Positions 953 through 61,638 of a DNA stretch of 64,000 nt are shown here, piece after piece. Below the pieces are notes generated by a model, which was not told the DNA's origin, did not search any database, and worked only from the letters and a program-made list of their open reading frames with translations. The first letter of the stretch is position 1. Each line of letters begins with the position of its first letter. The DNA comes from Sinohyriopsis cumingii. Lineage: Eukaryota; Mollusca; Bivalvia; Unionida; Unionidae. The position numbers were made by a program, and so were the translations under genes. The stretch spans positions 1-64,000 of the forward strand of contig JAPYKE020000525.1 of assembly GCA_028554795.2 (NCBI GenBank). Direction: 5' to 3'.

Positions 953-1067
953 GTATTAGAAATGACAACAATAAACTTGGATGATTATTAATGACAACAA
1001 TAAACATGGATGTATTAGCAATGGCTACACTAAGCTTGGATGTATTAGCAATGACAACAATAAACTT
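953..1067 (-). repeat. Inverted segment L1
   Basis: Four units in reverse orientation, 115 bases. Carries TATTAGAAATG at the left and AATGGCTACAC in the third unit, the diagnostic form of block B heads (also L12, L17 and L22). Confidence 0.92.
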
Positions 1068-1449
1068 GCTAGTACATCCAAGTTTAGTGTTGTCATTGCT
1101 AATACATCCATGTATATTGTTGTCATTGATAATGCATCCAAATTTATTGTTGTTATTGCTAATACATCCATGTTTATTGTTGTCATTGCTAACACATCCA
1201 TTTTTATTGTTGTGATTGTTAATACATCCATGTTTATTGTTGTCATTGCTAACACATCCATGTTTATTGTTGTGATTGTTAATACATCCATGTTTATTGT
1301 TGTCATTGCTAATACATCCAAGTTTATTGTTGTCGTTGTTAATACATCCAAGTTTATTGTTGCGATTGTTAATGCATCCAGGTTCGTTGTTGTCATTGAT
1401 AATGCATCCAAGTTTATTGTTGTCAATGATAATGGATCCAAGTTTATTG

Positions 1450-1760
1450 TGGTCATTACTAATAAATCCATGTTTTTTGTTGTCGTTGATAAAGCATCCA
1501 AGTTTATTGTTGTCATTGTTAAAGCATCCAAGTTTATTGTTGTGATTGTTAATGCATCCAAGTTTATTGTTGTCATTACTAATAAATCCATGTTTTTTGT
1601 TGTCGTTGATAAAGCATCCAAGTTTATTGTTGTCATTGTTGAAGCATCCAAGTTTATTGTTGTCATTGTTAATGCATCCAAGTTTATTGTTGTCATTACT
1701 AATAAATCCATGTTTTTTGTTGTCGTTGATAAAGCATCCAAGTTTATTGTTGTCATTGTT
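1450..1760 (+). repeat. K cluster, three copies of a 120-bp subrepeat
   Basis: K units recur at a 120-base period (about 1470, 1590 and 1710), each with GTTAAAGC or GTTGAAGC units between. Equivalent clusters have three copies near 16.42-16.69 kb, two near 25.16-25.35 kb, and one near 8.93, 12.78 and 21.44 kb. Confidence 0.85.
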
Positions 1761-3770
1761 AATGCATCCAAGTTTATTGTTGTCATTGCTAATACATCCA
1801 TTTTTATTGTTGTGATTGTTAATACATCCATGTTTATTGTTGTCATTGCTAACACATCCATGTTTATTGTTGTGATTGTTAATACATCCGTGTGTATTGT
1901 TGTCATTGCTAATACATAAAAGTTTATTGTTGTCGTTGCTAATATATCCATGTTTATTGTTGTCATTGTTAATACATCCAAGTTGATTGTTGTGATTGTT
2001 AATGCATCCAAGTTTATTGTTGTCATTGATAATGCATCCAGGTTTATTGTTGTCATTGATAATGCATCCAGGTTTATTGTTCTCATTGCTAATACATCCA
2101 AGTTTATTGCTGTCATTGCTAATGCTTCCATGTTTATTGTTGTCATTTCTAATACAACCGATTTCATTGTTTTAATTGATAATGCATCCAAGAATATTGT
2201 TGTCATTCCTAATACATTGAAGTTTATTGTTGTCATTGCTAATACATCCAAGTTTATTTTGTCATTGCTAATACATCCATGTTTATTGTTGTCATTGCTG
2301 ACACATCCATCTTTATTGTTGTGATTGTTAATACATCCATGTTTATTGTTGTCATTGCTAACACATCCATGTTTATTGTTGTGATTGTTAAAACATCCAT
2401 GTTTATTGTTGTCATTGCTAATACATCCAAGTTTATTGTTGTGATTGTTAATGCATCCAAGTATATTGTTGCCATTGATAATGCATCCAAGTTTATTGTT
2501 GTCATTGATAATGGATCCAAGTTTATTGTTGTCATTGCTAATACATCCATGTTTTTTGATGTCGTTGATAAAGCATCCAAGTTTATTGTTGTCATTGTTA
2601 ATGCGTCCAGGTTTATTGTTGTCATTGATAATACATCCAAGTTTAGTGTTCTCATTGTTAATACATCCATGTTTATTGTTATCATTGATAATGCATCCAA
2701 GTTTATTGTTGTCATTGTTAATGCATCCAAATTTATTGTTGTCATTGCTAATACATCCAAGTTTATTGTTGTCATTGCTGATACATCCATATTTATTGTT
2801 GTTATTGATGATGCATCCAAGTTTATTGTTGTCATTGTTAATACATCTATGTTTATTTTTGTCATTGATAATGCATCCAAGTTTAGTGTTGTCATTGCTA
2901 ATACATCCAAGTTTATTGTTGTCATTGCTAATACATCCATGTTTGTTGTTGTCATTGATAATACATCCAAGTTTATTGTTCTCATTGTAAATGCTTCCTT
3001 GCTTATAGTTGTCATTGATAATGCATCCAAGTTTATTGTTCTCATTGGTAATGCATCCAAGTTTATTACTGTCATTGCTAATCCATCCATGTTTATTGTT
3101 GTCATTATTAATGCATCCAAGTTTATTGTTGTCATTATTAATACATCCATCATTGTTGTTGTTATTGTTAATGCATCCAAGCTTATTGTTGGCATTGCTA
3201 ATGCATCCAAATTAATTGTTGTCATTCCTAATGCATCTGAATTTATTATTGTCATTGCTAATACATCGAAGTTTATTGTTGTCATTGCTAATATCTCCAT
3301 GTTTATTGTTGCCATTGCTAATGCCTCCAAGTTTATTGTTGTGATTGCTAATGCATCCATGTTTATTGTTGTCATTGCTAATACATCCATGTTTATTGTT
3401 TTCATTGCTAATGCATCCATGTTTATTGTTGTCATTGCTTAACACATCGATGTTTATTGTTGTGATTGTTAATACATCCATGTTTATTGTTGTCATTGCT
3501 AATACATCCATGTTTATTGTTGTAATTGCTAATACATCCATGTTTATTGTTGTCATTGCTAACACAACCATTTTTATTGTTGCGATTGTTCATACATCCA
3601 TGCTTATTGTTGTCATTGCTAACACATCCATGTTTATTGTTGTGATTGTTAATACATCCATGTTTATTGATGTCATTGCTAATACATCCATGTTTATTGT
3701 TGTCATTGTTAATACATCCATGTTTATTGTTGTCATTGTTAATACATCCAAGTTTATTGTTGTCATTGCT

Positions 3771-4250
3771 AATACATCCATCCTTTTGCTGTCATTCATA
3801 AGGCATCCAAGTTTATTGTTGTCGTTGCTAATACATCCATGTATATTTTTGTCATTGCTAATACATCCAGGTTTATTGTTGTGATTGCTAATGCATCCAT
3901 GTTTATTGTTGTCATTGCTAATACATACATGTTTATTGTTTTCATTGCTAATGCATCCACCTTTATTGTTGTCATTGCTAACACATCCATGTTTATTGTT
4001 GTCATTGCTAATACATCCATCCTTTTGCTGTCATTGATAAGGCATCCAAGTTTATTGTTGTCGTTGCTAATACATCCATGTATATTTTTGTCATTGCTAA
4101 TACATCCAGGTTTATTGTTGTGATTGCTAATGCATCCATGTTTATTGTTGTCATTGCTAATACATCCATGTTTATTGTTTTCATTGCTAATGCATCCACG
4201 TTTATTGTTGTCATTGCTAACACATCCATGTTTATTGTTGTGATTGTTAA
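3771..4250 (+). repeat. 239-bp tandem duplication carrying p'
   Basis: The p' unit at 3781 and its seven following units recur at 4020. The period is 239 because p' is 29 bases. It sits at the deletion that removed the G segment, so one event may have produced both. Confidence 0.82.
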
Positions 4251-4424
4251 TACATCCATGTTTATTGTTCTCATTGCTAATACATCCATGTTCATTGTTG
4301 TCATTGCTAATACATCCATGTTTATTGTTGTCATTGTTAATACATCGATGTTTATTGTTGTTATTGTTAATACATCCAAGTTTATTCTTTTGATTGTTAA
4401 TGCATCCAAGTTCATTGTTGTCAT

Positions 4425-4539
4425 GTATTAGCAATGACAACAATAAACTTGGATGATTATCAATGACAACAATAAACATGGATGTATAAGCAATGACTAC
4501 ACTAAGCTTGGATGTATTAGCAATGAAAACAATAAACTT
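4425..4539 (-). repeat. Inverted segment L2
   Basis: 115 bases. Private changes are GTATAAGCAATG, AATGAAAACAAT in the last unit, and a right flank CTAGTACATGAAAG. Confidence 0.92.
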
Positions 4540-4808
4540 GCTAGTACATGAAAGTTTAGTGTTGTCATTGCTAATACATCCATGTATATTGTTGTCATTG
4601 ATAATGCATCCAAATTTATTGTTGTCATTGCTAATACATCCATGTTTATTGTTGTCATTGCTAATATCTCCTTGTTTATTGTTGTCATTGCTAATACATC
4701 CATGTTTATTGTTGTCATTGCTAATACATCCATGTTTATTGTTGTCATTGTTAATACATCCAAGTATATTCTTTTGACTGTCAATGCATCCAAGTTTATT
4801 GTTGTCAT

Positions 4809-4923
4809 GTATTAGCAATGAGAAAAATAAACTTGGATGATTATCAATGACAACAATAAACATGCATGTATTAGCAATGACTACACTAAGCTTGGATGTA
4901 TTAGCAATGACAACAATAAACTT
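4809..4923 (-). repeat. Inverted segment L3
   Basis: 115 bases. The first unit reads ATGAGAAAAATAAAC and the second ends AACATGCATG. It lies 384 bases after L2. Confidence 0.92.
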
Positions 4924-5372
4924 GCTAGTACATCCAAGTTTAGTGTTGTCATTGCTAATACATCCATGTATATTGTTGTCATTGATAATGCATCCAAATT
5001 TATTGTTTTCATTGCTAATACATCCATGTTTATTGTTGGCATTCCTAATATCTCTATGTTTATTGTTATCATTGCTCATACCTCGAAGTTTATTGTTGTT
5101 ATTGCTAATGCAACGATGTTTTTGGTTGTCATTGCTAATACATCCATGTTTTTTGTTTTCATTGCTAATGAATCCATGTTTATTGTTGTCATTGCTAGCA
5201 CATCCATGTTTATTGTTGTGATTGTTATTACATCCATATTTATTGTTGTCATTGCTAATACATCCATGTTTATTGTTCTCATTACTAATACATCCATGTT
5301 TATTTTTGTCATTGTTAATACATCCAAGTTTATTGTTGTGATTGTTAATGAATCGAACTTTATTGTTTTCAT

Positions 5373-5457
5373 GTATTAGCAATGACAACAATAAACTTGG
5401 ATGATTATCAATGACAACAATAAACATGGATGTATTAGCAATGACAACAATAAACTT
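5373..5457 (-). repeat. Inverted segment C4
   Basis: 85 bases, three units, right edge AAACTTCCTAATAC. Left flank TTTATTGTTTTCAT, typical of C segments. Confidence 0.92.
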
Positions 5458-6894
5458 CCTAATACATCCAAGTTTACTGTTGTCATTGCTAATACATCCA
5501 TGTTTATTGTTGTCATTGATAATGCATCCACGTTTCCTGTTGTCATTGTCAATGCATCCAAGTTTATTGTTGTCATTGCTAATACATCCATGTTTGTTGT
5601 TGTCATTGCTAACACATCCATTTTTATTGTTGTGATTGTTAATACATCCATGTCTATTGTTGTCATTGCTGACACATCCACCTTTATTGTTGTGATTGTT
5701 AATACATCCATGTTTATTGTTGTCATTGCTAATACATCCATCCTTTTGTTGTTATTGATAAAGCATCTAAGTGCATTGTTGTCGTTGCTAATACATCCAT
5801 GTTTATTTTTGTCATTGCTAAAACATCCAAGTTTAGTGATGTCATTGCTAATACATCCATGTTTATTGTTGTCATTGATAATGCATCCAAGTTTATTGTT
5901 GTCATTGTTAATGCATCCAAGATTATTGTTGTCATTGCTAATACATCCAAGTTTCTTGTTGTCATTGCTAATACTTCCATGTCTATTGTTGTTATTGATA
6001 ATGCATCCAAGTTTATTGTTGTCATTGTTAATAAATCTATGTTTATTGTTGTCATTGATAATGCATCCAAGTTTATTGTTGTCATTGTTAATGCATCCAA
6101 GCTTATTGTTGTCATTGTTAATACATCTATGTTTATTGTTGTCATTGATAATGCAACTAAGTTTATTGTTGTCATTGATAATGCATCCAAGTTTATTGTT
6201 GTCATTGTTAATACATCTATGTTTATTGTTGTCATTGCTAATACATCCATGTTTATTGTTGTCATTCATAATGCATCCAAGTTTATTGTTGTCATTCTAA
6301 ATGCTTCCATGTTTATTGTTGTCATTGATAATGCATCCAAGTTTACTGTTGTCATTGGTAATACATCCAAGTTTATTGTTGTCATTGCTAATCCATCCAT
6401 GTTTATTGTTGTCATTATTAATGCATCCAAGTTTATTGTTGTCATTATTAATACATCAATCATTGTTGTTGTTATTGTTAATGCATCCAAGCATATTGTT
6501 CTCATTCCTAATGCATCCAAGTTAATTGTTGTCATTGCTAATGCATCTAACTTTATTCTTGTCATTGCTAATACATCCAAGTTTATTGTTGACATTGCTA
6601 ATATCTCCATGTTTATTGTTGTCATTGCTAATACCTCCAAGTTTATTGTTGTCATTGCTAATGCATCCATGTTTATTGTTGTCATTGCTAATACATCGAT
6701 GTTTATTGTTTTCATTGCTAATGCATCTACGTTTATTGTTGCATTGCTAACACATCCATGTTTATTGTTGTCATTGCTAATACATCCATGTTTATTGTTG
6801 TCATTGTTAATACATCGATGTTTAGTGTTGTCATTGTTAATACATCCAAGTTTATTCTTTTGATTGTTAATGCATCCAAGTTTATTCTTGTCAT

Positions 6895-7009
6895 GTATTA
6901 GCAATGACAACAATAAATTTGGATGATTATCAATGACAACAATAAACATGGATGTATTAGCAATGACTACACTAAGCTTGGATGTATTAGCAATGACAAC
7001 AATAAACTT
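6895..7009 (-). repeat. Inverted segment L5
   Basis: 115 bases. Has AATAAATTTGG in the first unit. Its right edge shows the fold-back well: 6980-7010 pairs with 7021-7051 (31 bases, one mismatch) around a 10-base loop. Confidence 0.92.
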
Positions 7010-8417
7010 GCTAGTACATCCAAGTTTAGTGTTGTCATTGCTAATACATCCATGTATATTGTTGTCATTGATAATGCATCCAAATTTATTGTTGTCATTG
7101 ATATTACATCCATGTATATTGTTGTCATTGCTAACACATCCATTTTTATTGTTGTGATTGTTAATACATCCAGGTTTATTGTTGTCATTGCTGACACATC
7201 CACCTTTATTGTTGTGATTGTTAATACATCCATCTTTATTGTTGTCATTGCTAATACATCCATCCTTTTGTTGTTATTGATAAAGCATCCAAGTGCATTG
7301 TTGTCGTTCCTAATACATCCATGTTTATTTTTGTCATTGCTAAAACATCCAAGTTTAGTGATGTCATTGCTAATACATCCATGTTTATTGTTGTCATTGA
7401 TAATGCATCCAAGTTTATTGTTGTCATTGTTAATGCATCCAAGATTATTGTTGTCATTGCTAATACATCCAAGTTTCTTGTTGTCATTGCTAATACATCC
7501 ATGTCTATTGTTGTTATTGATAATGCATCCAAGTTTATTGTTGTCATTGTTAATACATCTATGTTTATTGTTGTCATTGATAATGCATCCAAGTTTATTG
7601 TTGTCATTGTTAATGCATCCAAGCTTATTGTTGTCATTGTTAATACATCTATGTTTATTGTTGTCATTGATAATGCAACTAAGTTTATTGTTGTCATTGA
7701 TAATGCATCCAAGTTTATTGTTGTCATTGTTAATACATCTATGTTTATTGTTGTCATTGCTAATACATCCATGTTTATTGTTGTCATTGATAATGCATCC
7801 AAGTTTATTGTTGTCATTCTAAATGCTTCCATCATTTATTGTTGTCATTGATAATGCATCCAAGTTTACTGTTGTCATTGGTAATACATCCAAGTTTATT
7901 GTTGTCATTGCTAATCCATCCATGTTTATTGTTGTCATTATTAATGCATCCAAGTTTATTGTTGTCATTATTAATACATCAATCATTGTTGTTGTTATTG
8001 TTAATGCATCCAAGCATATTGTTCTCATTGCTAATGCATCCAAGTTAATTGTTGTCATTGCTAATGCATCTAACTTTATTCTTGTCATTGCTAATACATC
8101 CAAGTTTATTGTTGACATTGCTAATATCTCCATGTTTATTGTTGTCATTGCTAATACCTCCAAGTTTATTGTTGTCATTGCTAATGCATCCATGTTTATT
8201 GTTGTCATTGCTAATACATCGATGTTTATTGTTTTCATTGCTAATGCATCTACGTTTATTGTTGCATTGCTAACACATCCATGTTTATTGTTGTCATTGC
8301 TAATACATCCATGTTTATTGTTGTCATTGTTAATACATCGATGTTTAGTGTTGTCATTGTTAATATATCCAAGTTTATTCTTTTGATTGTTAATGCATCC
8401 ATGTTTATTCTTGTCAT
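6895..8417 (+). repeat. P-Z block following L5
   Basis: L5 is followed by P at 7263 and Z near 8262. From P onward it is a close copy of 5741-6894 with an offset of 1522, so the two are adjacent tandem copies. A small insertion near 7830 (TTCCATCATTTATTG) breaks the 30-base phase and is unique to this copy. Confidence 0.82.
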
Positions 8418-8532
8418 GTATTAGCAATGACAACAATAAATTTGGATGATAATCAATGACAACAATAAACATGGATGTATTAGCAATGACTACACTAAGC
8501 TTGGATGTATTAGCAATGACAACAATAAACTT
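8418..8532 (-). repeat. Inverted segment L6
   Basis: 115 bases. Shares AATAAATTTGG with L5 and adds GATAATCAATG, supporting tandem descent from the same block. Confidence 0.92.
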
Positions 8533-9431
8533 GCTAGTACATCCAAGTTTAGTGTTGTCATTGCTAATACATCCATGTATATTGTTGTCATTGATAATGC
8601 ATCCAAATTTATTGTTGTCATTGCTAATACATCCATGTATATTGTTGTCATTGCTAACACATCCATTTTTATTGTTGTGATTGTTAATACATCCAGGTTT
8701 ATTGTTGTCATTGCTAACACATCCATGTTTATTGTTGTGATTGTTAATACATCCATGTTTATTGTTGTCATTGCTAATACATCCAAGTTTATTGTTGTCA
8801 TTGTTAATACATCCAAGTTTATTGTTGCGATTGTTAATTCATCCAAGTTCATTGTTGTCATTGATAATGCATCCAAGTTTGTTGTCGTCAATGATAATGG
8901 ATCCAAGTTTATTGTTGTCATTACTAATAAATCCATGTTTTTTGTTGTCGTTGATAAAGCATCCAAGTTTATTGTTGTCATTGTTAATGCATCCAAGTTT
9001 ATTGTTGTCATTGCTAATACATCCATTTTTATTGTTGTGATTGTTAATACATCCATGTTTATTGTTGTCATTGGTAACACATCCTTGTTTATTGTTGTGA
9101 TTGTTAATACATCCGTGTGTATTGTTGTCATTGCTAATACATAAAAGTTTATTGTTGTCGTTGCTAATATATCCATGTTTATTGTTGTCATTGTTAATAC
9201 ATCCAAGTTGATTGTTGTGATTGTTAATGCATCCAAGTTTATTGTTGTCATTGCTAATACATACATGTTTCTTGTTGTCATTGATAATGCATCCAAGTTT
9301 ATTATTGTCATTGCTAATACATCCATGTTTATTGTTGTCATTGTTAATACATCCATGTTTATTGTTGTCATTGTTAATACATCCAAGTTTATTGTTGTGA
9401 TTGTTAATGCATCCAAGTTTATTGATGTCAT

Positions 9432-9516
9432 GTATTAGCAATGACAACAATAAACTTGGATGATTATTAATGACAACAATAAACATGGATGTATTAGCAA
9501 TGACAACAACAAACTT
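9432..9516 (-). repeat. Inverted segment T7 (short)
   Basis: 85 bases. Has GATTATTAATG and ACAACAACAAACTTG with an unmutated right edge CTAATACATCC. It is one unit shorter than the other T segments. Confidence 0.9.
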
Positions 9517-10624: not shown

Positions 10625-10709
10625 TTATTAGCAATGACAACAATGAACTTGGATGATTATCAATGACAACAATAAACATGGATGTATTAGCAATGAGAAC
10701 AATAAACTT
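10625..10709 (-). repeat. Inverted segment C8
   Basis: 85 bases. The left edge is CATTTATTAG (G to T), shared with C11, C16 and C21. Also ACAATGAACTTGG and AATGAGAACAAT. Confidence 0.92.
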
Positions 10710-12265
10710 CCTAATACATCCAAGTTCACTGTTGTCATTGCTAATACATCCATGTTTATTGTTGCCATTGATAATGCATCCATGTTTACTGTTGTCATTG
10801 TTAATGCATCCAAGTTTATTGTTGTCATTGCTAATACATCCATGTTTATTGTTGTCACTGCTAACACATCCATTTTTATTGTTGTGATTGTTAATACATC
10901 CATGTCTGTTGTTGTCATTTCTGACACATCCACCTTTATTGTTGTGATTGTTAATACATCCATGTTTATTGTTGTCATTGCTAATACATCCATCCTTTTG
11001 TTGTTATTGATAAAGCATCCAAGTGTATTGTTGTCGTTGCTAATACATCCATGTTTATTTTTGTCATTGCTAATACATCCAAGTTTAGTGATGTCATTGT
11101 TAATACATCCATGTTTATTGTTGTCATTGATAATGCATCCAAGTTTATTGTTGTCATTGTTTATGCATCCAAGATTATTGTTGTCATTGCTAATACATCC
11201 AAGTTTCTTGTTTTCATTGCTAATACATCCATGTCTATTGTTGTTATTGATAATGCATCCAAGTTTATTGTTGTCATTGTTAATACATCTATTTATATTG
11301 TTGTCATTGATAATGCATGCAAGTTTATTGTTGTCATTGTTAATGCATCCAAGCTTATTGTTGTCATTGCTAATACATCCAAGTTTATTGTTGTCTTTGC
11401 TAATACATCCATGTTTCTTGTTGTCATTGATAATGCATCCAAGTTTATTGTTGTCATTGTTAATGCATCCAAGCTTATTGTTGTCATTGTTAATACATCT
11501 ATGTTTATTGTTGTCATTGATAATGCAACTAAGTTTATTGTTGTCATTGATAATGCATCCAAGTTTATTGTTGTCATTGTTAATACATCTATGTTTATTG
11601 TTGTCATTGCTAATACATCCATGTTTATTGTTGTCATTGATAATGCATCCAAGTTTATTGTTGTCATTGTAAATGCTTCATGTTTATTATTGTCATTGAT
11701 AATGCATCCAAGTTTACTGTTGTCATTGGTAATACATCCAATTTTTTTGTTGTCATTGCTAATCCATCCATGTTTATTCTTGTCATTACTAATGCATCCC
11801 AGTTTATTGTTGTCATTATTAATACATCTATCATTGTTGTTGTTATTGTTAATGCATCCAAGCTTATTGTTGGCATTGCTAATGCATCCAAGTTAATTGT
11901 TGTCATTCCTAATGCATCTAAATTTATTCTTGTCATTGCTAATACATCCAAGTTTATTGTTGACATTGCTAATATCTCCATGTTTATTGTTGTCATTGCT
12001 AATACCTCCAAGTTTATTGTTGTGATTGCTAATGCATCCATGTTTTTTGTTGTCATTGCTAATACATCGATGTTTATTGTTTTCATTGCTAATGCATCCA
12101 CGTTTATTGTTGCATTGCTAACACATCCATGTTTCTTGTTGTCATTGCTAATACATCCATGTTTATTGTTGTCATTCTTAATACATCGATGTTTAGTGTT
12201 GTCATTGTTAATACATCCAAGTTTATTCTTTTGATTGTTAATGCATCCAAGTTTATTCTTGTCAT

Positions 12266-12380
12266 GTATTAGCAATGACAACAATAAACTTGGATGATTA
12301 TCAATGACAACAATAAACATGGATGTATTAGCAATGACTACACTAAGCTTGGATGTATTAGCAATGACAACAATAAACTT
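12266..12380 (-). repeat. Inverted segment L9
   Basis: 115 bases, consensus L with no private change noticed. Confidence 0.92.
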
Positions 12381-13369
12381 GCTAGTACATCCAAGTTTAG
12401 TGTTGTCATTGCTAATACATCCATGTATATTGTTGTCATTGATAATGCATCCAAATTTATTGTTGTCAATGCTAATACATCCATGTATATTGTTGTCATT
12501 GCTAACACATCCATTTTTATTGTTGTGATTGTTAATACATCCATGTTTATTGTTGTCATTGTTAACACATCCATCTTTATTGTTTTGATTGTTAATACAT
12601 CCATGTTTATTGTTGTCATTGCTAATACATCCAAGTTTATTGTTGTCATTGTTAATACATCCAAGTTTATTGTTGCGATTGTTAATGCATCCATGTTCAT
12701 TGTTGTCATTGATAATGCATCCAAGTTTGTTGTTGTCAATGATAATGGATCCAAGTTTATTGTTGTCATTACTAATAAATCCATGTTTTTTGTTGTCGTT
12801 GATAAAGCATCCAAGTTTATTGTTGTCATTGTTAATGCATCCAAGTTTATTGTTGTCATTGCTAATACATCCATTTTTATTGTTGTGATTGTTAATACAT
12901 CCATGTTTATTGTTGTCATTGGTAACACATCCTTGTTTATTGTTGTGATTGTTAATACATCCGTGTGTATTGTTGTCATTGCTAATACATAAAAGTTTAT
13001 TGTTCTCGTTGCAAATATATCCATGTTTATTGTTGTCATTGTTAATACATCCAAGTTGATTGTTGTGATTGTCAATGCATCCAAGTTTATTGTTGTCATT
13101 GCTAATACATACATGTTTCTTGTTGTCGTTGATAAAGCATCCAAGTTTATTGTTGTCATTGTTAATGCATCCAAGTTTATTGTTGTCATTGCTAACACAT
13201 CCATGTTTATTGTTGTGATTGTTAATACATCCATGTTTATTGTTGTCATTGCTAATACATCCATGTTTATTGTTGTCATTGTTAATACATCCATGTTTAT
13301 TGTTGTCATTGTTAATACATCCAAGTTTATTGTTGTGATTGTTAATGCATCCAAGTTTATTGATGTCAT

Positions 13370-13484
13370 GTATTAGCAATGACAACAATAAACTTGGATG
13401 ATTATTAATGACAACAATAAACATGGATGTCTTAGCAATGACAACACTAAACTTGGATGTATTAGCAATGACAACAACAAACTT
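13370..13484 (-). repeat. Inverted segment T10
   Basis: 115 bases. The third unit is ACAACACTAAACTTGG and the last ACAACAACAAAC. Private GATGTCTTAGC and right edge CTTACTAATAC. Confidence 0.92.
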
Positions 13485-14262: not shown

Positions 14263-14347
14263 TTATTAGCAATGACAACAATAAACTTGGATGATTATCA
14301 ATGACAACAATAAACATGGATGTATTAGCAATGACAACAATAAACTT
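14263..14347 (-). repeat. Inverted segment C11
   Basis: 85 bases, left edge CATTTATTAG, right flank AAGTTCACTG. Confidence 0.92.
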
Positions 14348-44507: not shown

Positions 44508-44592
44508 GTATTAGCAATGACAGCAATAAACTTGGATGATTATCAATGACAACAATAAACATGGATGTATTAGCAATGACAACAATCAACTT
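44508..44592 (-). repeat. Inverted segment C32
   Basis: 85 bases with ACAGCAATAAAC and ACAATCAACTTCC, both shared with C36. Confidence 0.92.
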
Positions 44593-48112: not shown

Positions 48113-48197
48113 GTATTAGCAATGACAGCAATAAACTTGGATGATTATCAATGACAACAATAAACATGGATGTATTAGCAATGACAACAATCAACTT
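48113..48197 (-). repeat. Inverted segment C36
   Basis: 85 bases, ACAGCAATAAAC and ACAATCAACTTCC as in C32, 3,605 bases upstream. Confidence 0.92.
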
Positions 48198-49634: not shown

Positions 49635-49749
49635 GTATTAGCAATGACAACAATAAACTTGGATGATTATCAATGACAACAATAAACATGGATGTGTTAG
49701 CAATGTCTACACTAAGATTGGATGTATTAGCAATGACAACAATAAACTT
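49635..49749 (-). repeat. Inverted segment L37
   Basis: 115 bases, GTGTTAGC and CTAAGATTGG sub-lineage, plus private AATGTCTACAC. Confidence 0.92.
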
Positions 49750-50166: not shown

Positions 50167-51368
50167 CGTTGATAAAGCATCCAAGTTTATTGTTGTCATT
50201 GTTAATGCATCCAAGTTTATTGTTGTCATTACTAATAAATCCATGTTTTTTGTTGTCGTTGATAAAGCATCCAAGTTTATTGTTGTCATTGTTAATGCAT
50301 CCAAGTTTATTGTTGTCACTGCTAATACATCCATTTTTATTGTTGTGATTGTTAATACATCCATGTTTATTGTTGTCATTGCTAACACATCCATGTTTAT
50401 TGTTTTGATTGTTAATACATCCGTGTGTATTGTTGTCATTGCTAATACATAAAAGTTTATTGTTGTCGTTGCTAATATATCCATGTTTATTGTTGTCATT
50501 GTTAATACATCCAGGTTGATTGTTGTGATTGTTAATGCATCCAAGTTTATTGTTGTCATTGATAATGCATCCCGGGTTATTGTTGTCATTGATAATGCAT
50601 CCAGGTTTATTGTTCTCATTGCTAATACATCCAAGTTTATTGCTGTCATTGCTAATGCTTCCATGTTTATTGTTGTCATTTCTAATACAACCGAGTTCAT
50701 TGTTTTAATTGATAATGCATCAAAGAATATTGTTGTCATTCCTAATACATTGAAGTTTATTGTTGTCATTGCTAATACATCCAAGTTTATTTTGTCATTG
50801 CTAATACATCCATGTTTATTGTTGTCATTGCTAACACATCCATTTTTATTGTTGTGATTGTTAATACATCCATGTTTATTGTTGTCATTGCTAACACATC
50901 CATGTTTATTGTTGTGATTGTTAAAACATCCATGTTTATTGTTGTCATTGCTAATACATCCAAGTTTATTGTTGTGATTGTTAATGCATCCAAGTATATT
51001 GTTGCCATTGATAATGCATCCAAGTTTATTGTTGTCATTGATAATGGATCCAAGTTTATTGTTGTCATTGCTAATACATCCATGTTTTTTGATGTCGTTG
51101 ATAAAGCATCCAAGTTTATTGTTGTCATTGTTAATGCATCCAGGTTTATTGTTGTCATTGCTAATACATCCAAGTTTAGTGTTGTCATTGTTAATACATC
51201 CATGTTTATTGTTGTCATTGATAATGCATCCAGGTTTATTGTTGTCATTGCTAATACATCCAAGTTTAGTGTTGTCATTATTAATACATCCATGTTTATT
51301 TTTGTCATTGTTAATACATCCAAGTTTATTGTTGTGATTGTTAATGAATCCAACTTTATTGTTTTCAT

Positions 51369-51453
51369 GTATTAGCAATGACAACAATAAACTTGGATGA
51401 TTATCAATGACAACAATAAACATGGATGTATTAGCAATGACAACAATAAACTT
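51369..51453 (-). repeat. Inverted segment C38
   Basis: 85 bases, consensus C. Confidence 0.92.
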
Positions 51454-52830
51454 CCTAATACATCCAAGTTTACTGTTGTCATTGCTAATACAGCCATATT
51501 TATTGTTGTCATTGATAATGCATCCAAGTTTACTGTTGTCATTGTTAATGCATCCAAGTTTATTGTTGTCATTGCTAATACATTTATGTTTATTGTTGTC
51601 ATTGCTAACACATCCATTTTTATTGTTGTGATTGTTAATACATCCATGTTTATTGTTGTCATTGCTAATACATCCATCCTTTTGTTGTTATTGATAAAGC
51701 ATCCAAGTGTATTGTTGTCGTTGCTCATACATCCATGTTTATTTTTGTCATTGCTAAAACATCCAAGTTTAGTGATGTCATTGCTAATACATCCATGTTT
51801 ATTGTTGTCATTGATAATGCATCCAAGTTTATTGTTGTCATTGTTAATGCATCCAGGATTATTGTTGTCATTGCTAATACATCCAAGTTTCTTGTTGTCA
51901 TTGCTAATACATCCATGTCTATTGTTGTTATTGATAATACATCCAAGTTTATTGTTGTCATTGTTAATACATCTATGTTTATTGTTGTCATTGATAATGC
52001 GTCCAAGTTTATTGTTGTCATTGTTAATGCATCCAACCTTATTGTTGTCATTGTTAATACATCTATGTTTATTGTTGTCATTGATAATGCAACTAAGTTT
52101 ATTGTTGTCATTGATAATGCATCCAAGTTCATTGTTGTCATTGTTAATACATCTATGTTTATTGTTGTCATTGCTAATACATCCATGTTTATTGTTGTCA
52201 TTGATAATGCATCCAAGTTTATTGTTGTCATTGTAAATGCTTCCATGTTTATTGTTGTCATTGATAATGCATCCAAGTTTACTGTTGTCATTGGTAATAC
52301 ATCCAAGTTTATTGTTGTCATTGCTAATCCATCCATGTTTATTGTTGTCATTATTAATGCATCCAAGTTTATTGTTGTCATTATTAATACAGCAATCATT
52401 GTCGTTGTTATTGTTAATGCATCCAAGCTTATTGTTGGCATTGCTAATGCATCCAAGTTAATTGTTGTCATTCCTAATGCATCTAAATTTATTCTTGTCA
52501 TTGCTAATACATCCAAGTTTATTGTTGACATTGCTAATATCTCCATGTTTATTGTTGTCATTGCTAATACCTCCAAGTTTATTGTTGTGATTGCTAATGC
52601 ATCCATGTTTATTGTTGTCATTGCTAATACATCGATGTTTATTGTTTTCATTCCTAATGCATCCACGTTTATTGTTGCATTGCTAACACATCCATGTTTC
52701 TTGTTGTCATTGCTAATACATCCATGTTTATTGTTGCCATTGTTAATACATCGATGTTTAGTGTTGTCATTGTTAATACATCCAAGTTTATTCTTTTGAT
52801 TGTTAATGCATCCAAGTTTATTCTTGTCAT
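51369..52830 (+). repeat. C38-P-Z block
   Basis: P is at 51677 and Z near 52676. Private variants ACATTTATG (about 51591), CATCCAGGATTATTG (about 51850) and CATCCAACCTTATTG (about 52029) are shared with 60003-61524 and tie the two blocks together. Compared with that copy it lacks two units (1,462 against 1,522 bases). Confidence 0.82.
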
Positions 52831-52945
52831 GTATTAGCAATGACAACAATAAACTTGGATGATTATCAATGACAACAATAAACATGGATGTATTAGCAAT
52901 GACTACACTAAGCTTGGATGTATTAGCAATGACAATAATAAACTT
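52831..52945 (-). repeat. Inverted segment L39
   Basis: 115 bases, private ACAATAATAAACTTG in the last unit. Confidence 0.92.
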
Positions 52946-55041
52946 GCTAGTACATCCAAGTTTAGTGTTGTCATTGCTAATACATCCATGTATATTGTTG
53001 TCATTGATAATGCATCCAAATTTATTGTTGTCATTGCTAATACATCCATGTTTATTGTTGTCATTGCTAACACATCCATTTTTATTCTTGTGATTGTTAA
53101 TACATCCATGTTTATTGTTGTCATTGCTAACACATCCATGTTTATTGTTGTGATTGTTAATACATCCATGTTTATTGTTGTCATTGCTAATACATCCAAG
53201 TTTATTGTTGTCATTGTTAATACATCCAAGTTTATTGTTGCGATTGTTAATGCATCCAAGTTCATTGTTGTCATTGATAATGCATCGAAGTTTATTGTTG
53301 TCAATGATAATGGATCCAAGTTTATTGTTGTCATTACTAATAAATCCATGTTTTTTTTGTCGTTGATAAAGCATGCAAGTTTATTGTTGTCATTGTTAAT
53401 GCATCCAAGTTTATTGTTGTCATTGCTAATACATTAATTTTTATTGTTGTGATTGTTAATGCATCCAAGTTTATTATTGTCATTACTAATAAATCCATGT
53501 TTTTTGTTGTCGTTGATAAAGCATCCAAGTTTATTGTTGTAATTGTTAAAGAATCCAAGTTTATTGTTGTCATTGTTAATGCATCCAAGTTTATTGTTGT
53601 CATTACTAATAAATCCATGTTTTTTGTTGTCGTTGATAAAGCATCCAAGTTTATTGTTGTCATTGTTAATGCATCCAAGTTTATTGTTGTCATTGCTAAT
53701 ACATCCATTTTTAATGTTGTGATTGTTAATACATCCATGTTTATTGTTGTCATTGCTAACACATCCAATTTTATTGTTGTGATTGTTAATACATCCATGT
53801 CTATTGTTGTCATTGCTGACACATCCACCTTTATTGTTGTGATTGTTAATACATCCATGTTTATTGTTGTCATTGCTAATACATCCATCCTTTTGTTGTT
53901 ATTGATAAAGCATCCAAGTGTATTGTTGTCGTTGCTAATACATCCATGTTTATTTTTGTCATTGCTAAAACATCCAAGTTTAGTGATGTCATTGCTAATA
54001 CATCCATGTTTATTGTTGTCTTTGATAATGCATCCAAGTTTATTGTTGTCATTGTTAATGCATCCAAGATTATTGTTGTCATTGCTAATACATCCACGTT
54101 TCTTGTTGTCATTGCTAATACATCCATGTCTATTGTTGTTATTGATAATACATCCAAGTTTATTGTTGTCATTATTAATACATCTATGTTTATTGTTGTC
54201 ATTGATAATGCATCCAAGTTTATTGTTGTCATTGTTAATGCATCCAAGCTTATTGTTGTCATTGTTAATACATCTATGTTTATTGTTGTCATTGATAATG
54301 CAGCTAAGTTTATTGTTGTCATTGATAATGCATCCAAGTTTATTGTTGTCATTGTTAATACATCTATGTTTATTGTTGTCATTGCTAATACATCCATGTT
54401 TATTGTTGTCATTGATAATGCATCCAAGTTTATTGTTGTCATTGTAAATGCTTCCATGTTTATTTTTGTCATTGATAATGCATCCAAGTTTACTGTTGTC
54501 ATTGGTAATACATCCAAGTTTATTGTTGTCATTGCTAATCCATCCATGTTTATTGTTGTCATTATTAATGCATCCAAGTTTATTGTTGTCATTATTAATA
54601 CATCAATCATTGTCGTTGTTATTGTTAATGCATCCAAGCTTATTGTTGGCATTGCTAATGCATCCAAGTTAATTGTTGTCATTCCTAATGCATCTAAATT
54701 TATTCTTGTCATTGCTAATACATCCAAGTTTATTGTTGACATTGCTAATTTCTCCATGTTTATTGTTGTCATTGCTAATACCTCCAAGTTTATTGTTGTG
54801 ATTGCTAATGCATCCATGTTTATTGTTGTCATTGCTAATACATCGATGTTTATTGTTTTCATTCCTAATGCATCCACGTTTATTGTTGCATTGCTAACAC
54901 ATCCATGTTTCTTGTTGTCATTGCTAATACATCCATGTTTATTGTTGTCATTGTTAATACATCGATGTTTAGTGTTGTCATTGTTAATACATCCAAGTTT
55001 ATTCTTTTGATTGTTAATGCATCCAAGTTTATTCTTGTCAT
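52831..55041 (+). repeat. 2,212-bp block, copy 1 (L39-K3-P-Z)
   Basis: K units are near 53350 (eight-T form), 53498 and 53618, followed by P at 53888 and Z near 54886. ACATTAATTTTTATTG near 53433 is a unit found only in this family and the matching copies at 55648, 62128 and 63207. The next L lies 2,211 bases on. Confidence 0.84.
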
Positions 55042-55156
55042 GTATTAGCAATGACAACAATAAACTTGGATGATTATCAATGACAACATTAAACATGGAT
55101 GTATTAGCAATGACTACACTAAGCTTGGATGTATTAGCAATGACAGCAATAAACTT
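55042..55156 (-). repeat. Inverted segment L40
   Basis: 115 bases, private ACAACATTAAACATGG and ACAGCAATAAACTTG. Confidence 0.92.
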
Positions 55157-57254
55157 GCTAGTACATCCAAGTTTAGTGTTGTCATTGCTAATACATCCAT
55201 GTATATTGTTGTCATTGATAATGCATCCAAATTTATTGTTGTCATTGCTAATACATCCATGTTTATTGTTGTCATTGCTATCACATCCATTTTTATTGTT
55301 GTGATTGTTAATACATCCATGTTTATTGTTGTCATTGCTAACACATCCATGTTTATTGTTGTGATTGTTAATACATCCATGTTTATTGTTGTCATTGCTA
55401 ATACATCCAAGTTTATTGTTGTCATTGTTAATACATCCAAGTTTATTGTTGCGATTGTTAGTGCATCCAAGTTCATTGTTGTCATTGATAATGCATCCAA
55501 GTTTATTGTTGTCAATGATAATGGATCCAAGTTTATTGTTGTCATTACTAATAAATCCATGTTTTTTTTTTGTCGTTGATAAAGCATGCAAGTTTATTGT
55601 TGTCATTGTTAATGCATCCAAGTTTATTGTTGTCATTGCTAATACATTAATTTTTATTGTTGTGATTGTTAATGCATCCAAGTTTATTGTTGTCATTACT
55701 AATAAATCCATGTTTTTTTTTGTCGTTGATAAAGCATCCAAGTTTATTGTTGTCATTTTTAAAGCATCCAAGTTTATTGTTGTCATTGTTAATGCATCCA
55801 AGTTTATTGTTGTCATTACTAATAAATCCATGTTTTTTGTTGTCGTTGATAAAGCATCCAAGTTTATTGTTGTCATTGTTAATGCATCCAAGTTTATTGT
55901 TGTCATTGCTAATACATCCATTTTTATTGTTGTGATTGTTAATACATCCATGTTTATTGTTGTCATCGCTAACACATCCAATTTTATTGTTGTGATTGTT
56001 AATACATCCATGTCTATTGTTGTCATTGCTGACACATCCACCTTTATTGTTGTGATTGTTAATACATCCATGTTTATTGTTGTCATTGCTAATACATCCA
56101 TCCTTTTGTTGTTATTGATAAAGCATCCAAGTGTATTGTTGTCGTTGCTAATACATCCATGTTTATTTTTGTCATTGCTAAAACATCCAAGTTTAGTGAT
56201 GTCATTGCTAATACATCCATGTTTATTGTTGTCATTGATAATGCATCCAAGTTTATTGTTGTCATTGTTAATGCATCCAAGATTCTTGTTGTCATTGCTA
56301 ATACATCCACGTTTCTTGTTGTCATTGCTAATACATCCATGTCTATTGTTGTTATTGATAATACATCCAAGTTTATTGTTGTCATTCTTAATACATCTAT
56401 GTTTATTGTTGTCATTGATAATGCATCCAAGTTTATTGTTGTCATTGTTAATGCATCCAAGCTTATTGTTGTCATTGTTAATACATCTATGTTTATTGTT
56501 GTCATTGATAATGCAACTAAGTTTATTCTTGTCATTGATAATGCATCCAAGTTTATTGTTGTCATTGTTAATACATCTATGTTTATTGTTGTCATTGCTA
56601 ATACATCCATGTTTATTGTTGTCATTGATAATGCATCCAAGTTTATTGTTGTCATTGTAAATGCTTCCATGTTTATTGTTGTCATTGATAATGCATCCAA
56701 GTTTACTGTTGTCATTGGTAATACATCCAAGTTTATTGTTGTCATTGCTAATCCATCAATGTTTATTGTTGTCATTATTAATGCACCCATGTTTATTGTT
56801 GTCATTATTAAAACATCAATCATTGTCGTTGTTATTGTTAATGCATCCAAGCTTATTGTTGGCATTGCTAATGCATCCAAGTTAATTGTTGTCATTCCTA
56901 ATGCATCTAAATTTATTCTTGTCATTGCTAATACATCCAAGTTTATTGTTGACATTGCTAATATCTCCATGTTTATTGTTGTCATTGCTAATACCTCCAA
57001 GTTTATTGTTGTGATTGCTAATGCATCCATGTTTATTGTTGTCATTGCTAATACATCGATGTTTATTGTCTTCATTCCTAATGCATCCACGTTTATTGTT
57101 GCATTTCTAACACATCCATGTTTCTTGTTGTCATTGCTAATACATCCATGTTTATTGTTGTCATTGTTAATACATCGATGTTTAGTGTTGTCATTGTTAA
57201 TACATCCAAGTTTATTCTTTTGATTGTTAATGCATCCAAGTTTATTCTTGTCAT
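55042..57254 (+). repeat. 2,212-bp block, copy 2 (L40-K3-P-Z)
   Basis: Same order as the previous block: K near 55561 (ten-T form), 55710 (nine-T form) and 55830, P at 56101 and a changed Z near 57100 (GCATTTCTAACAC). The period is 2,213 bases. The two copies form a clear tandem pair of about 74 units each. Confidence 0.84.
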
Positions 57255-57369
57255 GTATTAGCAATGACAACAATAAACTTGGATGATTATCAATGACAAC
57301 AATAAACATGGATGTGTTAGCAATGACTACACTAAGATTGGATGTATTAGCAATGACAACAATAAACTT
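57255..57369 (-). repeat. Inverted segment L41
   Basis: 115 bases, GTGTTAGC and CTAAGATTGG sub-lineage. Confidence 0.92.
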
Positions 57370-58479
57370 GCTAGTACATCCAAGTTTAGTGTTGTCATTG
57401 CTAATACATCCATGTATATTGTTGTCATTGATAATGCATCCAAATTTATTGTTGTCATTGCTAATACATCCATGTTTATTGTTGTCATTGCTAACACATC
57501 CATTTTTGTTGTTGTGATTGTTAATACATGCATGTTTATTGTTGTCATTGCTAACACATTAATGTTTATTGTTGTGATTGTTAATACATCCATGTTTATT
57601 GTTGTCATTGCTAATACATCCAAGTTTATTGTTGTCATTGTTAATACATCCAAGTTTATTGTTGCGATTGTTAATGCATCCAAGTTCATTGTTGTCATTG
57701 ATAATGCATCCAAGTTTATTGTTGTCAATGATAATGGATCCAAGTTTATTGTTGTCATTACTAATAAATCCATGTTTTTTTTTTGTCGTTGATAAAGCAT
57801 GCAAGTTTATTGATGTCATTGTTAATGCATCCAAGTTTATTGTTGTCATTGCTAATACATCCATTTTTATTGTTGTGATTGTTTATTCATCCAAGTTTAT
57901 TGTTGTCATTACCAATAAATCCATCTTTTTTGTTGTCGTTGATAAAGCATCCAAGTTTATTGTTGTCATTGTTAAAGCATCCAAGTTTATTGTTGTCATT
58001 GTTATTGCATCCAAGTTTATTGTTGTCATTACTAATAAATCCATGTTTTTTGTTGTCGTTGATAAAGCATCCAAGTTTATTGTTGTCATTGTTAATGCAT
58101 CCAAGTATATTGTTGCCATTGATAATGCATCCAAGTTTATTGTTGTCATTGATAATGGATCCAAGTTTATTGTTGTCATTGCTAATACATCCATGTTTTT
58201 TGATGTCGTTGATAAAGCATCCAAGTTTATTGTTGTCATTGTTAATGCATCCAGGTTTATTGTTGTCATTGCTAATACATCCAAGTTTAGTGTTGTCATT
58301 GTTAATACATCCATGTTTATTGTTGTCATTGATAATGCATCCAGGTTTATTGTTGTCATTGCTAATACATCCAAGTTTAGTGTTGTCATTATTAATACAT
58401 CCATGTTTATTTTTGTCATTGTTAATACATCCAAGTTTATTGTTGTGATTGTTAATGAATCCAACTTTATTGTTTTCAT
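57255..58479 (+). repeat. L41-K3-K' block
   Basis: K units are near 57774 (ten-T form), 57930 and 58050. The array then jumps into the K' region (about 58194) without R, Q or S and reaches C42. It appears to be a fusion of a K-P block with the end of a B-like block. Confidence 0.78.
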
Positions 58480-58564
58480 GTATTAGCAATGACAACAATA
58501 AACTTGGATGATTATCAATGACAACAATAAACATGGATGTATTAGCAATGACAACAATAAACTT
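58480..58564 (-). repeat. Inverted segment C42
   Basis: 85 bases, consensus C; right flank CATCTAAGTTTACTG. Confidence 0.92.
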
Positions 58565-60002
58565 CCTAATACATCTAAGTTTACTGTTGTCATTGCTAAT
58601 ACATCCATGTTTATTGTTGTCATTGATAATGCATCCAAGTTTACTGTTGTCATTGTTAATGCATCCAAGTTTATTGTTGTCATTGCTAATACATCCATTT
58701 TTATTGTTGTGATTGTTTATTCATCCAAGTTTATTGTTGTCATTACTAGTAAATCCATGTTTTTTGTTGTCGTTGATAAAGCATCCAAGTTTATTGTTGT
58801 CATTGTTAAAGCATCCAAGTTTATTGTTGTCATTGTTAATGCATCCAAGTTTATTGTTGTCATTACTAATAAATCCATGTTTTTTGTTGTCGTTGATAAA
58901 GCATCCAAGTTTATTGTTGTCATTGTTAATGCATCCAAGTTTATTGTTGTCACTGCTAATACATCCATTTTTATTGTTGTGATTGTTAATACATCCATGT
59001 TTATTGTTGTCATTGCCAACACATCCATGTTTATTGTTTTGATTGTTAATACATCCGTGTGTATTGTTGTCATTGCTAATACATAAAAGTTTATTGTTGT
59101 CGTTGCTAATATATCCATGTTTATTGTTGTCATTGTTAATACATCCAGGTTGATTGTTGTGATTGTTAATGCATCCAAGTTTATTGTTGTCATTGATAAT
59201 GCATCCCGGTTTATTGTTGTCATTGATAATGCATCCAGGTTTATTGTTCTCATTGCTAATACATCCATGTTTATTGCTGTCATTGCTAATGCTTCCATGT
59301 TTATTGTTGTCATTTCTAATACAACCGAGTTCATTGTTTTAATTGATAATGCATCAAAGAATATTGTTGTCATTCCTAATACATTGAAGTTTATTGTTGT
59401 CATTGCTAATACATCCAAGTTTATTTTGTCATTGCTAATACATCCATGTTTATTGTTGTCATTGCTAACACATCCATTTTTATTGTTGTGATTGTTAAAA
59501 CATCCATGTTTATTGTTGTCATTGCTAACACATCTATGTTTATTGTTGTGATTGTTAAAACATCCATGTTTATTGTTGTCATTGCTAATACATCCAAGTT
59601 TATTGTTGTGATTGTTAATGCATCCAAGTATATTGTTGCCATTGATAATGCATCCAAGTCTATTGTTGTCATTGATAATGGATCCAAGTTTATTGTTGTC
59701 ATTGCTAATACATCCATGTTTTTTGATGTCCTTGATAAAGCATCCAAGTTTATTGTTGTCATTGTTAATGCATCCAGGTTTATTGTTGTCATTTCTAATA
59801 CATCCAAGTTTAGTGTTGTCATTGTTAATACATCCATGTTTATTGTTGACATTGATAATGCATCCAGGTTTATTGTTGTCATTGCTAATACATCCAAGTT
59901 TAGTGTTGTCATTATTAATACATCCATGTTTATTTTTGTCATTGTTAATACATCCAAGTTTATTGTTGTGATTGTTAATGAATCCAACTTTATTGTTTTC
60001 AT
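58480..60002 (+). repeat. C42-K2-R-Q-S-K' block
   Basis: This is the only place where a C segment leads into K-R-Q-S-K' and then another C, not into P and an L. K is near 58760 and 58878, R near 59084, Q near 59335, S near 59423 and K' near 59714. From about 58.86 kb it matches 50.23-51.37 kb with an offset of about 8,635. Confidence 0.8.
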
Positions 60003-60087
60003 GTATTAGCAATGACAACAATAAACTTGGATGATTATCAATGACAACAATAAACATGGATGTATTAGCAATGACAACAATAAACCT
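60003..60087 (-). repeat. Inverted segment C43
   Basis: 85 bases; right edge AAACCTCCTAATAC (T to C), flank AAGTTTGCTG. Confidence 0.92.
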
Positions 60088-61524
60088 CCTAATACATCCA
60101 AGTTTGCTGTTGTCATTGCTAATACATCCATGTTTCTTGTTGTCATTGATAATGCATCCAAGTTTACTGTTGTCATTGTTAATGCATCCAAGTTTATTGT
60201 TGTCATTGCTAATACATTTATGTTTATTGTTGTCATTGCTAACACATCCATTTTTATTGTTGTGATTGTTAATACATCAATGTCTATTGTTGTCATTGCT
60301 GACACATCCACCTTTATTGTTGTGATTGTTAATACATCCATGTTTATTGTTGTCATTGCTAATACATCCATCCTTTTGTTGTTATTGATAAAGCATCCAA
60401 GTGTATTGTTGTCGTTGCTCATACATCCATGTTTATTTTTGTCATTGCTAAAACATCCAAGTTTAGTGATGTCATTGCTAATACATCCATGTTTATTGTT
60501 GTCATTGATAATGCATCCAAGTTTATTGTTGTCATTGTTAATGCATCCAGGATTATTGTTGTCATTGCTAATACATCCAAGTTTCTTGTTGTCATTGCTA
60601 ATACATCCATGTCTATTGTTGTTATTGATAATACATCCAAGTTTATTGTTGTCATTGTTAATACATCTATGTTTATTGTTGTCATTGATAATGCTTCCAA
60701 GTTTATTGTTGTCATTGTTAATGCATCCAACCTTATTGTTGTCATTGTTAATACATCTATGTTTATTGTTGTCATTGATCATGCAACTAAGTTTATTGTT
60801 GTCATTGATAATGCATCCAAGTTTATTGTTGTCATTGTTAATACATCTATGTTTATTGTTGTCATTGCTAATACATCCATGTTTATTGTTGTCATTGATA
60901 ATGCATCCAAGTTTATTGTTGTCATTGTAAATGCTTCCATGTTTATTGTTTTCATTGATAATGCATCCAAGTTTACTGTTGTAATTGGTAATACATCCAA
61001 GTTTATTGTTGTCATTTCTAATCCATCCATGTTTATTGTTGTCATTATTAATGCATCCAAGTTTATTGTTGTCATTATTAATACATCAATCATTGTCGTT
61101 GTTATTGTTAATGCATCCAAGCTTATTGTTGGCATTCCTAATGCATCCAAGTTAATTGTTGTCATTCCTAATGCATCTAAATTTATTCTTGTCATTGCTA
61201 ATACATCCAAGTTTATTGTTGACATTGCTAATATCTCCATGTTTATTGTTGTCATTGCTAATACCTCCAAGTTTATTGTTGTGATTGCTAATGCATCCAT
61301 GTTTATTGTTGTCATTGCTAATACATCGATGTTTATTGTTTTCATTCCTAATGCATCCACGTTTATTGTTGCATTGCTAACACATCCATGTTTCTTGTTG
61401 TCATTGCTAATACATCCATGTTTATTGTTGTCATTGTTAATACATCGATGTTTAGTGTTGTCATTGTTAATACATCCAAGTTTATTCTTTTGATTGTTAA
61501 TGCATCCAAGTTTATTCTTGTCAT
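60003..61524 (+). repeat. C43-P-Z block
   Basis: P is at 60371 and Z near 61369. It shares ACATTTATG (60211), the CCAGGATT unit (60547) and the CCAACCTT unit (60727) with 51369-52830. The length of 1,522 bases equals the C-to-L distances at 5373 and 48113. Confidence 0.83.
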
Positions 61525-61638
61525 GTATTAGCAATGACAACAATAAACTTGGATGATTATCATGACAACAATAAACATGGATGTATTAGCAATGACTACA
61601 CTAAGCTTGGATGTATTAGCAATGACAACAATAAACTT
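61525..61638 (-). repeat. Inverted segment L44
   Basis: 114 bases; one A is missing (GATTATCATGACAAC). It is the only L segment with an internal one-base deletion. Confidence 0.92.

Follow-up and report, generated by a model that had tools for sequence, protein, structure and literature searches.

In the sugar beet 21-bp minisatellite BvMSat05, head-to-head junctions recur in multiple arrays and, in the parts of that paper drawn on here, are tentatively ascribed to break repair or to breakage-fusion-bridge cycles (PMC2820488). In Tribolium madens, the inversion sites INV_1a, INV_1b and INV_2 are 98-99% alike and separate kilobase subarrays, and the authors argue for a function in the sections used here (PMC13081366); the same sections cite inverted segments lying inside satellite monomers, of ~470 bp in Tribolium brevicornis and of 80 bp in Trichogramma brassicae. 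Short-range template switches, as the four-point model is outlined in the portions of two further papers used here, give in one event a hairpin-forming reverse-complement copy of nearby sequence (PMC7954356, PMC8794818). Here we describe the first 64,000 nucleotides of contig JAPYKE020000525.1 of Sinohyriopsis cumingii (assembly GCA_028554795.2), called the window below, in which a one-directional 30-bp satellite is interrupted by 44 short segments in reverse orientation. All 44 descend from one ancestral mutation that was multiplied by block duplication and recombination, and their phase lock is a matter of common descent; we give this reading a probability of about 80%.

The array is like BvMSat05 in its short AT-rich tandem unit and in an orientation switch repeated at a similar junction. 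In BvMSat05, however, as far as those parts of the paper describe it, head-to-tail arrays meet head to head with a 50-bp palindromic motif on one side, whereas here a backward piece of 3-4 units sits inside a forward array and no foreign motif is present; the BvMSat05 and 30-bp BvMSat07 monomers listed in the paper look unlike the present unit (by eye; PMC2820488). As in Tribolium madens, the orientation-switch sites are conserved, distinct from ordinary units and predicted to form strong hairpins, but the inverted subarrays there measure several kb and tend to symmetry while ours span 82-115 bp, the comparison being one of arrangement (PMC13081366). An inverted repeat fixed in a satellite is also what is cited for T. 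brevicornis and Trichogramma brassicae, in one case at a similar size; there it is part of the monomer, and here it occupies 44 irregular places among ~2,000 units (PMC13081366). Template-switch mutations likewise turn the reverse-complement copy of nearby sequence into a hairpin-forming inverted repeat, but those covered in the parts of the papers used here were found against related or reconstructed ancestral sequences, unlike the present copy, which is multiplied 44-fold in a satellite and known without an ancestral allele (PMC7954356, PMC8794818). No short template-switch hairpin multiplied in a satellite was found in the open-licence literature searched (titles and abstract starts); searches for satellites with inverted segments or template switching missed PMC2820488, so this negative does not show such cases to be rare.

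The whole window is a single satellite that reaches past both ends (one Tandem Repeats Finder row, 2143.5 copies, 80% matches):

2-64000, plus strand: 30-bp satellite array, consensus CATCCAAGTTTATTGTTGTCATTGCTAATA (Tandem Repeats Finder)

Base-lag autocorrelation was swamped by the 30-bp period. Segments were called by a two-strand wrap-around Viterbi alignment in which each base was placed on the unit in either orientation and with free phase. This gave 44 reverse segments between 951 and 61636, and three weaker strand-switch penalties added 0 further ones. Outside these segments the window runs in one direction, and the pattern is not due to chance. The 44 inverted segments picked out by an earlier, sequence-only reading of this stretch were thus recovered, with lengths of 82-115 bp in our calls: 115 bp in 26 copies, 114 in 1, 86 in 2, 85 in 11 and 82 in 4. 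We sorted the copies by exit sequence into type I (TTGCTAGTAC, 26 copies), type II (TTCCTAATAC, 10, or CTCCTAATAC, 1) and type III (TTGCTAATAC, 6, or TTACTAATAC, 1). The Viterbi calls are as follows:

951-1065, minus strand: reverse segment 1, type I, 115 bp
4423-4537, minus strand: reverse segment 2, type I, 115 bp
4807-4921, minus strand: reverse segment 3, type I, 115 bp
5371-5455, minus strand: reverse segment 4, type II, 85 bp
6893-7007, minus strand: reverse segment 5, type I, 115 bp
8416-8530, minus strand: reverse segment 6, type I, 115 bp
9430-9514, minus strand: reverse segment 7, type III, 85 bp
10626-10707, minus strand: reverse segment 8, type II, 82 bp
12264-12378, minus strand: reverse segment 9, type I, 115 bp, also the folding example
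13368-13482, minus strand: reverse segment 10, type III, 115 bp
14264-14345, minus strand: reverse segment 11, type II, 82 bp
15903-16017, minus strand: reverse segment 12, type I, 115 bp, within the 99.66% duplicate of segment 1's block
18747-18831, minus strand: reverse segment 13, type III, 85 bp
19580-19694, minus strand: reverse segment 14, type I, 115 bp
21942-22056, minus strand: reverse segment 15, type III, 115 bp
23138-23219, minus strand: reverse segment 16, type II, 82 bp
24747-24861, minus strand: reverse segment 17, type I, 115 bp
27380-27464, minus strand: reverse segment 18, type III, 85 bp
28153-28267, minus strand: reverse segment 19, type I, 115 bp
29255-29369, minus strand: reverse segment 20, type III, 115 bp
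30511-30592, minus strand: reverse segment 21, type II, 82 bp
32062-32176, minus strand: reverse segment 22, type I, 115 bp
35235-35319, minus strand: reverse segment 23, type III, 85 bp
36068-36182, minus strand: reverse segment 24, type I, 115 bp
37950-38035, minus strand: reverse segment 25, type I, 86 bp, internal 29-base loss
38305-38419, minus strand: reverse segment 26, type I, 115 bp
38869-38953, minus strand: reverse segment 27, type II, 85 bp
40271-40385, minus strand: reverse segment 28, type I, 115 bp
42244-42358, minus strand: reverse segment 29, type I, 115 bp
43528-43642, minus strand: reverse segment 30, type I, 115 bp
43912-44026, minus strand: reverse segment 31, type I, 115 bp
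44506-44590, minus strand: reverse segment 32, type II, 85 bp
45908-46022, minus strand: reverse segment 33, type I, 115 bp
47222-47307, minus strand: reverse segment 34, type I, 86 bp, internal 29-base loss
47547-47661, minus strand: reverse segment 35, type I, 115 bp
48111-48195, minus strand: reverse segment 36, type II, 85 bp
49633-49747, minus strand: reverse segment 37, type I, 115 bp
51367-51451, minus strand: reverse segment 38, type II, 85 bp
52829-52943, minus strand: reverse segment 39, type I, 115 bp
55040-55154, minus strand: reverse segment 40, type I, 115 bp
57253-57367, minus strand: reverse segment 41, type I, 115 bp
58478-58562, minus strand: reverse segment 42, type II, 85 bp
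60001-60085, minus strand: reverse segment 43, type II, 85 bp
61523-61636, minus strand: reverse segment 44, type I, 114 bp

When breakpoints were counted by unit phase, the exit fell at one phase in 44/44 segments and the entry at one phase in 40/44. The remaining four are the 82-bp type II copies, in which a base change puts TTATTAG in place of GTATTAG and shifts the called entry by 3 bases. The phase lock that had been reported thus holds, as does an entry at GTATTAG or a one-base variant (GTATTAG 35, TTATTAG 4, GCATTAG 3, GTATTAT 2). The fixed sequence said to precede the entry does not hold as a general rule: the eight preceding bases are GTTGTCAT in 16/44 copies, CTTGTCAT in 10, GTTTTCAT in 7, GATGTCAT in 4, GTTGTCGT in 2 and ATTGTCGT in 1, and TTTTCAT precedes the entry of the four 82-bp copies. 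In forward coordinates the segments read as units a-b-c-d (114-115 bp) or a-c-d (82-85 bp), and in the two 86-bp copies the 29-base loss fuses units c and d. Each orientation switch is marked by conserved junction units distinct from the rest of the array, as at the Tribolium madens sites.

The evidence for common descent comes from variants inside the segments and in the units beside them. Unit c carries T7 in 44/44 segments and A25 in 43/44, and 42/44 lack one base at position 30 of this unit, the other two being the 86-bp copies, which lost that stretch. The position-30 deletion was seen in 0/1,509 background forward units, chosen as having fewer than 4 gaps and lying more than 6 units away from any segment. 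Unit L2, second on the left, has G20/T25/G30 in 44/44 cases, compared with 3.1% of the background, and unit R3, third on the right, has T7/A25/G30 in 42/44, compared with 13.4%. Gapped flank profiles were uninformative, with alignments slipping by whole units, and flanks were instead compared unit by unit in register; units L2-L5 then had a mean identity of 0.93-0.95 and units R2-R5 one of 0.90-0.955, where 20,000 randomly drawn unit pairs gave 0.849. The similarities of the left and right 300-bp flanks are also correlated (Mantel r 0.50, reached by 0/2,000 permutations). Many independent events at a preferred site, through a site-specific recombinase or a hairpin-prone hotspot at CTAATAC/GTATTAG, would give the single exit phase and the nearly single entry phase, and this motif does belong to the unit consensus. 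Such events would sit in random contexts, however, and since the segments share both internal and in-register flank variants, independent events do not explain the array; nor does the window hold a recombinase gene, as Tandem Repeats Finder sees the satellite alone in it. This explanation, to which we leave hardly any probability, is refuted for these 44 segments, whose contexts are shared by descent and not by the choice of a target site. The sequence-only reading correctly expected scattered breakpoints from inversions arising at random and independently, but inversions repeated at one point are not needed, one origin followed by amplification explaining the phase lock.

One result weighs against a single origin. 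From the sixth unit outward, identity pooled over all types, with no unit indels, is close to background (~0.82-0.90), so that a long shared context is seen solely within types or when indels are allowed. With a one-unit indel, and judged by eye, the right-flank consensuses of the three types are closely alike to about R10, units R5-R9 of type I corresponding to R6-R10 of types II and III with 0 to 2 differences per unit. On the left, types I and II are alike to about L10, again by eye and with a one-unit indel that pairs L9-L10 of type I with L10-L11 of type II.

Multiplication in blocks is visible in the array itself. The start-to-start spacing of the segments runs from 325 to 3,472 bp, in agreement with the reported range of ~325 to 3,470, but it is irregular and recurs module by module, so the earlier description as regularly spaced fails. 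The string I-I-II-I was found four times (starting at 4423, 37950, 43528 and 47222) with spacings of 325-384, 564-594 and 1402-1522. Among three-segment strings, 17 pairs agree in type and spacing within a tolerance of 130 bp that we set ourselves; 500 shuffles gave 2.2 such pairs on average and never more than 9. As strings of segments recur in both type and spacing, the spacing is a fingerprint of higher-order repeats. Long duplicates tell the same story: 2-3780 and 14954-18732, two 3.8-kb blocks lying 14,952 bases apart, are 99.66% identical (the closest pair among the blocks listed), and 51456-56265 and 53667-58479 (4.8 kb) are 97.0% identical, values to be set against the 84.9% of random units. 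Most remaining blocks are ~94-96% identical, a level at which alignments may also cross unrelated units. The 3.8-kb pair could be a recent duplication or a duplication in the assembly.

An assembly artefact as the source of the segments themselves has in its favour that long satellites are difficult to assemble. The 44 copies fall into three subtypes with length variants and private substitutions and are nested in blocks of differing divergence, and a chimera would not remake one junction with different mutations; we consider this explanation highly improbable. We also considered the palindromes as recombination breakpoints, since the ends of BLAST self-hits lie near segment edges (61/61 on the left and 52/53 on the right, within 40 bp in at least one copy). 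This idea was rejected: random units are ~85% identical, and alignments therefore extend until an inverted segment halts them. The outer parts of the duplicate blocks carry the same caution about alignment overrun.

Inversions that look site-specific and repeated in a satellite can thus stem from one mutation and block amplification. A shared internal deletion together with shared flank motifs provides a simple test for conserved inversions or head-to-head junctions in other satellites, one that could precede any claim of function or of a repeated mechanism. The segments are, in addition, ready markers for reconstructing how the array grew.

As to the founding event, it was probably a short-range template switch that inserted an inverted copy. 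The growing strand would have departed from its template near unit position 22 (...GTTGTCAT) and switched to the opposite strand, reading it backwards from R4 through R3 and R2 into the recipient unit, ~3.8 units of the adjoining right flank, before it went back to the same place (...TTG|CTAATAC). An inverted copy would thus have been inserted without loss and a palindrome formed. Later losses, in an inferred order, would have removed one inner unit in some lineages, giving the 85- and 82-bp forms, and 29 bases in another lineage, giving the 86-bp forms. Block duplication and recombination, in the form of higher-order repeats, multiplied the segment with its neighbours. Removal of the segment brings the flanks together in phase in 40/44 cases, as GTTGTCAT|TGCTAGTAC or a variant of it, and in the four 82-bp copies one extra T is left at the joined flanks. 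Two bases (AT) are shared at the entry junction and three at the exit (TTG; TTC in most type II copies). Because the flanks join in phase without them, the segments resemble inserted inverted copies more than in-place inversions.

The other candidate for a single founding event is an ordinary in-place inversion or a fold-back break repair, either with small losses at the two ends, amplified in the same way. It would yield identical shared variants and flanks, and elsewhere in the array there are windows as similar to the segment as its right flank is. A clean inversion nevertheless misfits the unit positions, as the segment in forward orientation runs from positions 5-8 to 1-3 and the flanks break off and continue near 22, and it would need a loss of bases in exactly the amount that keeps the flanks in phase. 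We thus regard it as unlikely, though less so than the other alternatives.

The template switch would have used the units next to the segment, and the immediate right flank is moderately supported as the putative donor. For segment 1 this corresponds to:

1066-1165, plus strand: right-flank units R1-R4 beside segment 1, proposed donor example; kin units flank other segments

At nine diagnostic sites (in units b, c and d), a complete match was found in 22/44 right-adjacent windows and in 1/1,810 others. Against the inferred ancestral segment, a score of at least 85/89 was reached by 29/44 right-adjacent three-unit windows compared with 28/1,805 others, and by 0/44 left-adjacent windows (maximum 82). 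With the raw type I consensus, at least 85/91 was reached by right-adjacent windows in 25/26 type I, 2/11 type II and 2/7 type III copies. A donor search over 1,854 windows was also run for each copy of 114 bp or more (27 copies); the copy's own flank was top-ranked among nearby windows in 17/27, and R2 windows of some segment made up 10 to 20 of the 20 best windows for every copy.

Several observations speak against the right flank as donor and against the switch itself. In the same search the copy's own right flank was the best match by raw identity in 0/27 copies (another segment's R2 was in 2/27), and it ranked 4-151 of 1,854 in 26/27 copies and 1,111 in one. The 85/91 level with the raw type I consensus was also reached by 28/1,805 other windows. 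The agreement of 89/89 between the reconstructed flank and the segment hinges on the ancestral states chosen, and the type II/III flank order gives 87. The right-adjacent windows are, moreover, mutual copies, closer to one observation than to 29. Finally, no empty site was found in the window, the best match to the joined flanks being 0.927 (150 bp per side, ungapped). Being the reverse complement of nearby sequence is a property that any reverse unit here has loosely, and the right flank is among the best sources without being the only one. The segments would work like a template-switch mutation, but we do not class them as one, no insert-free allele having been found in the window.

We then considered what the palindromes may do. 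Single-strand DNA folding of segment 9 with its flanks gave -103.8 kcal/mol (z -17), compared with -20.2 (z 0.35) for a plain stretch of equal length. Over the 44 segments with 60 bp per side, the mean was -72.9 kcal/mol (range -59.8 to -86.9), against -10.4 (range -4.0 to -20.0) for 88 forward windows. The predicted hairpin potential is strong, and it follows trivially from backward units lying beside forward ones. Such hairpins may render the DNA fragile or recombination-prone. The segments could be functional palindromes kept by selection or biased conversion, with cruciforms that serve in chromatin organisation or centromere nucleation or that drive amplification as sites of breakage. Besides the fold energies, the distribution of diversity would favour this possibility, and it goes against purely passive segments. 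Indeed, segments are more alike than their 300-bp flanks both within and between types (between types, 0.942-0.967 compared with 0.888-0.918), and diversity, low at and next to the segment, climbs away from it in the 400-bp flanks of type I (18/26 copies) and in types II (11/11) and III (7/7).

These signals are mixed, and there is no convincing sign of selection. Among the type I copies, 10/26 have long free flanks, and in these the left side matches the segment in uniformity (0.008-0.053 compared with 0.028) out to 900 bp, although the right side does not. Sorting copies by exit sequence favours similarity close to the segments, and their spacing is irregular. In register, the segments do not change significantly more slowly than flank units: the consensus differences (0/82 compared with 8/150, p 0.053; 2/82 with 7/150, p 0.50; 2/82 with 5/150, p 1.0; Fisher) are not significant. 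The copy number of near-identical windows averages 17.2 at the segments, inside the range found elsewhere (11.2-22.9). We thus consider a functional element improbable; the structural role suggested by the sequence-only reading keeps the strong hairpin potential and gains neither an excess of copies nor a significant slow-down, some of the hints above being contrary to these negatives. Slightly more doubtful still is a variant in which the template-switch hairpin would be the working part of the array, a cruciform that stalls forks or breaks and so drives its own block duplications as a self-spreading element. Most likely the segments ride along passively; a single origin and hitch-hiking suffice here, in contrast with the function argued for Tribolium madens. 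As a separate observation, near-identical relatives are on average most numerous (22.9) in the right flanks at about +120 to +200 bp, among the distance classes examined, and single windows elsewhere reach 72 (e.g. at 21166).

For the rest of the sequence, no family was matched in Rfam, and the exact 30-mer and a degenerate form of it had no match in the viral and genome contigs searched. A 1-kb piece of the array had no match among plasmids (low-complexity filter on). No description of the satellite was found in the open-licence literature searched, where six sub-strings of the unit were also without match and where the papers listed on 30-bp satellites, apart from PMC2820488, dealt with different repeats as far as titles and abstract starts show. 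At up to 1 mismatch, a pattern for the CENP-B box had 0 matches in the window, a result of little weight as only 0.16 was expected by chance. An array of this kind would fit a eukaryotic source. No credible gene was found in the window, as judged from the frames alone, without a family search. A coding role was rejected, since on inspection the 30-bp consensus is open in several frames and the variable positions 7, 25 and 30 have no three-base rhythm. Stop-to-stop frames with 250 codons or more nevertheless number 106 in the window; they lie on either strand and shift in frame, and the longest, of 959 codons, is stop-free at 53876-56755 on the minus strand, spans satellite and one reverse segment, and is probably a by-product of the open unit consensus. 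Variation between units is focused at positions 7 (A/T), 25 (C/T/A), 30 (A/G) and 20 (C/G), resembling a mixture of a few unit classes, and at all remaining positions the commonest base is found in 85-100% of forward units.

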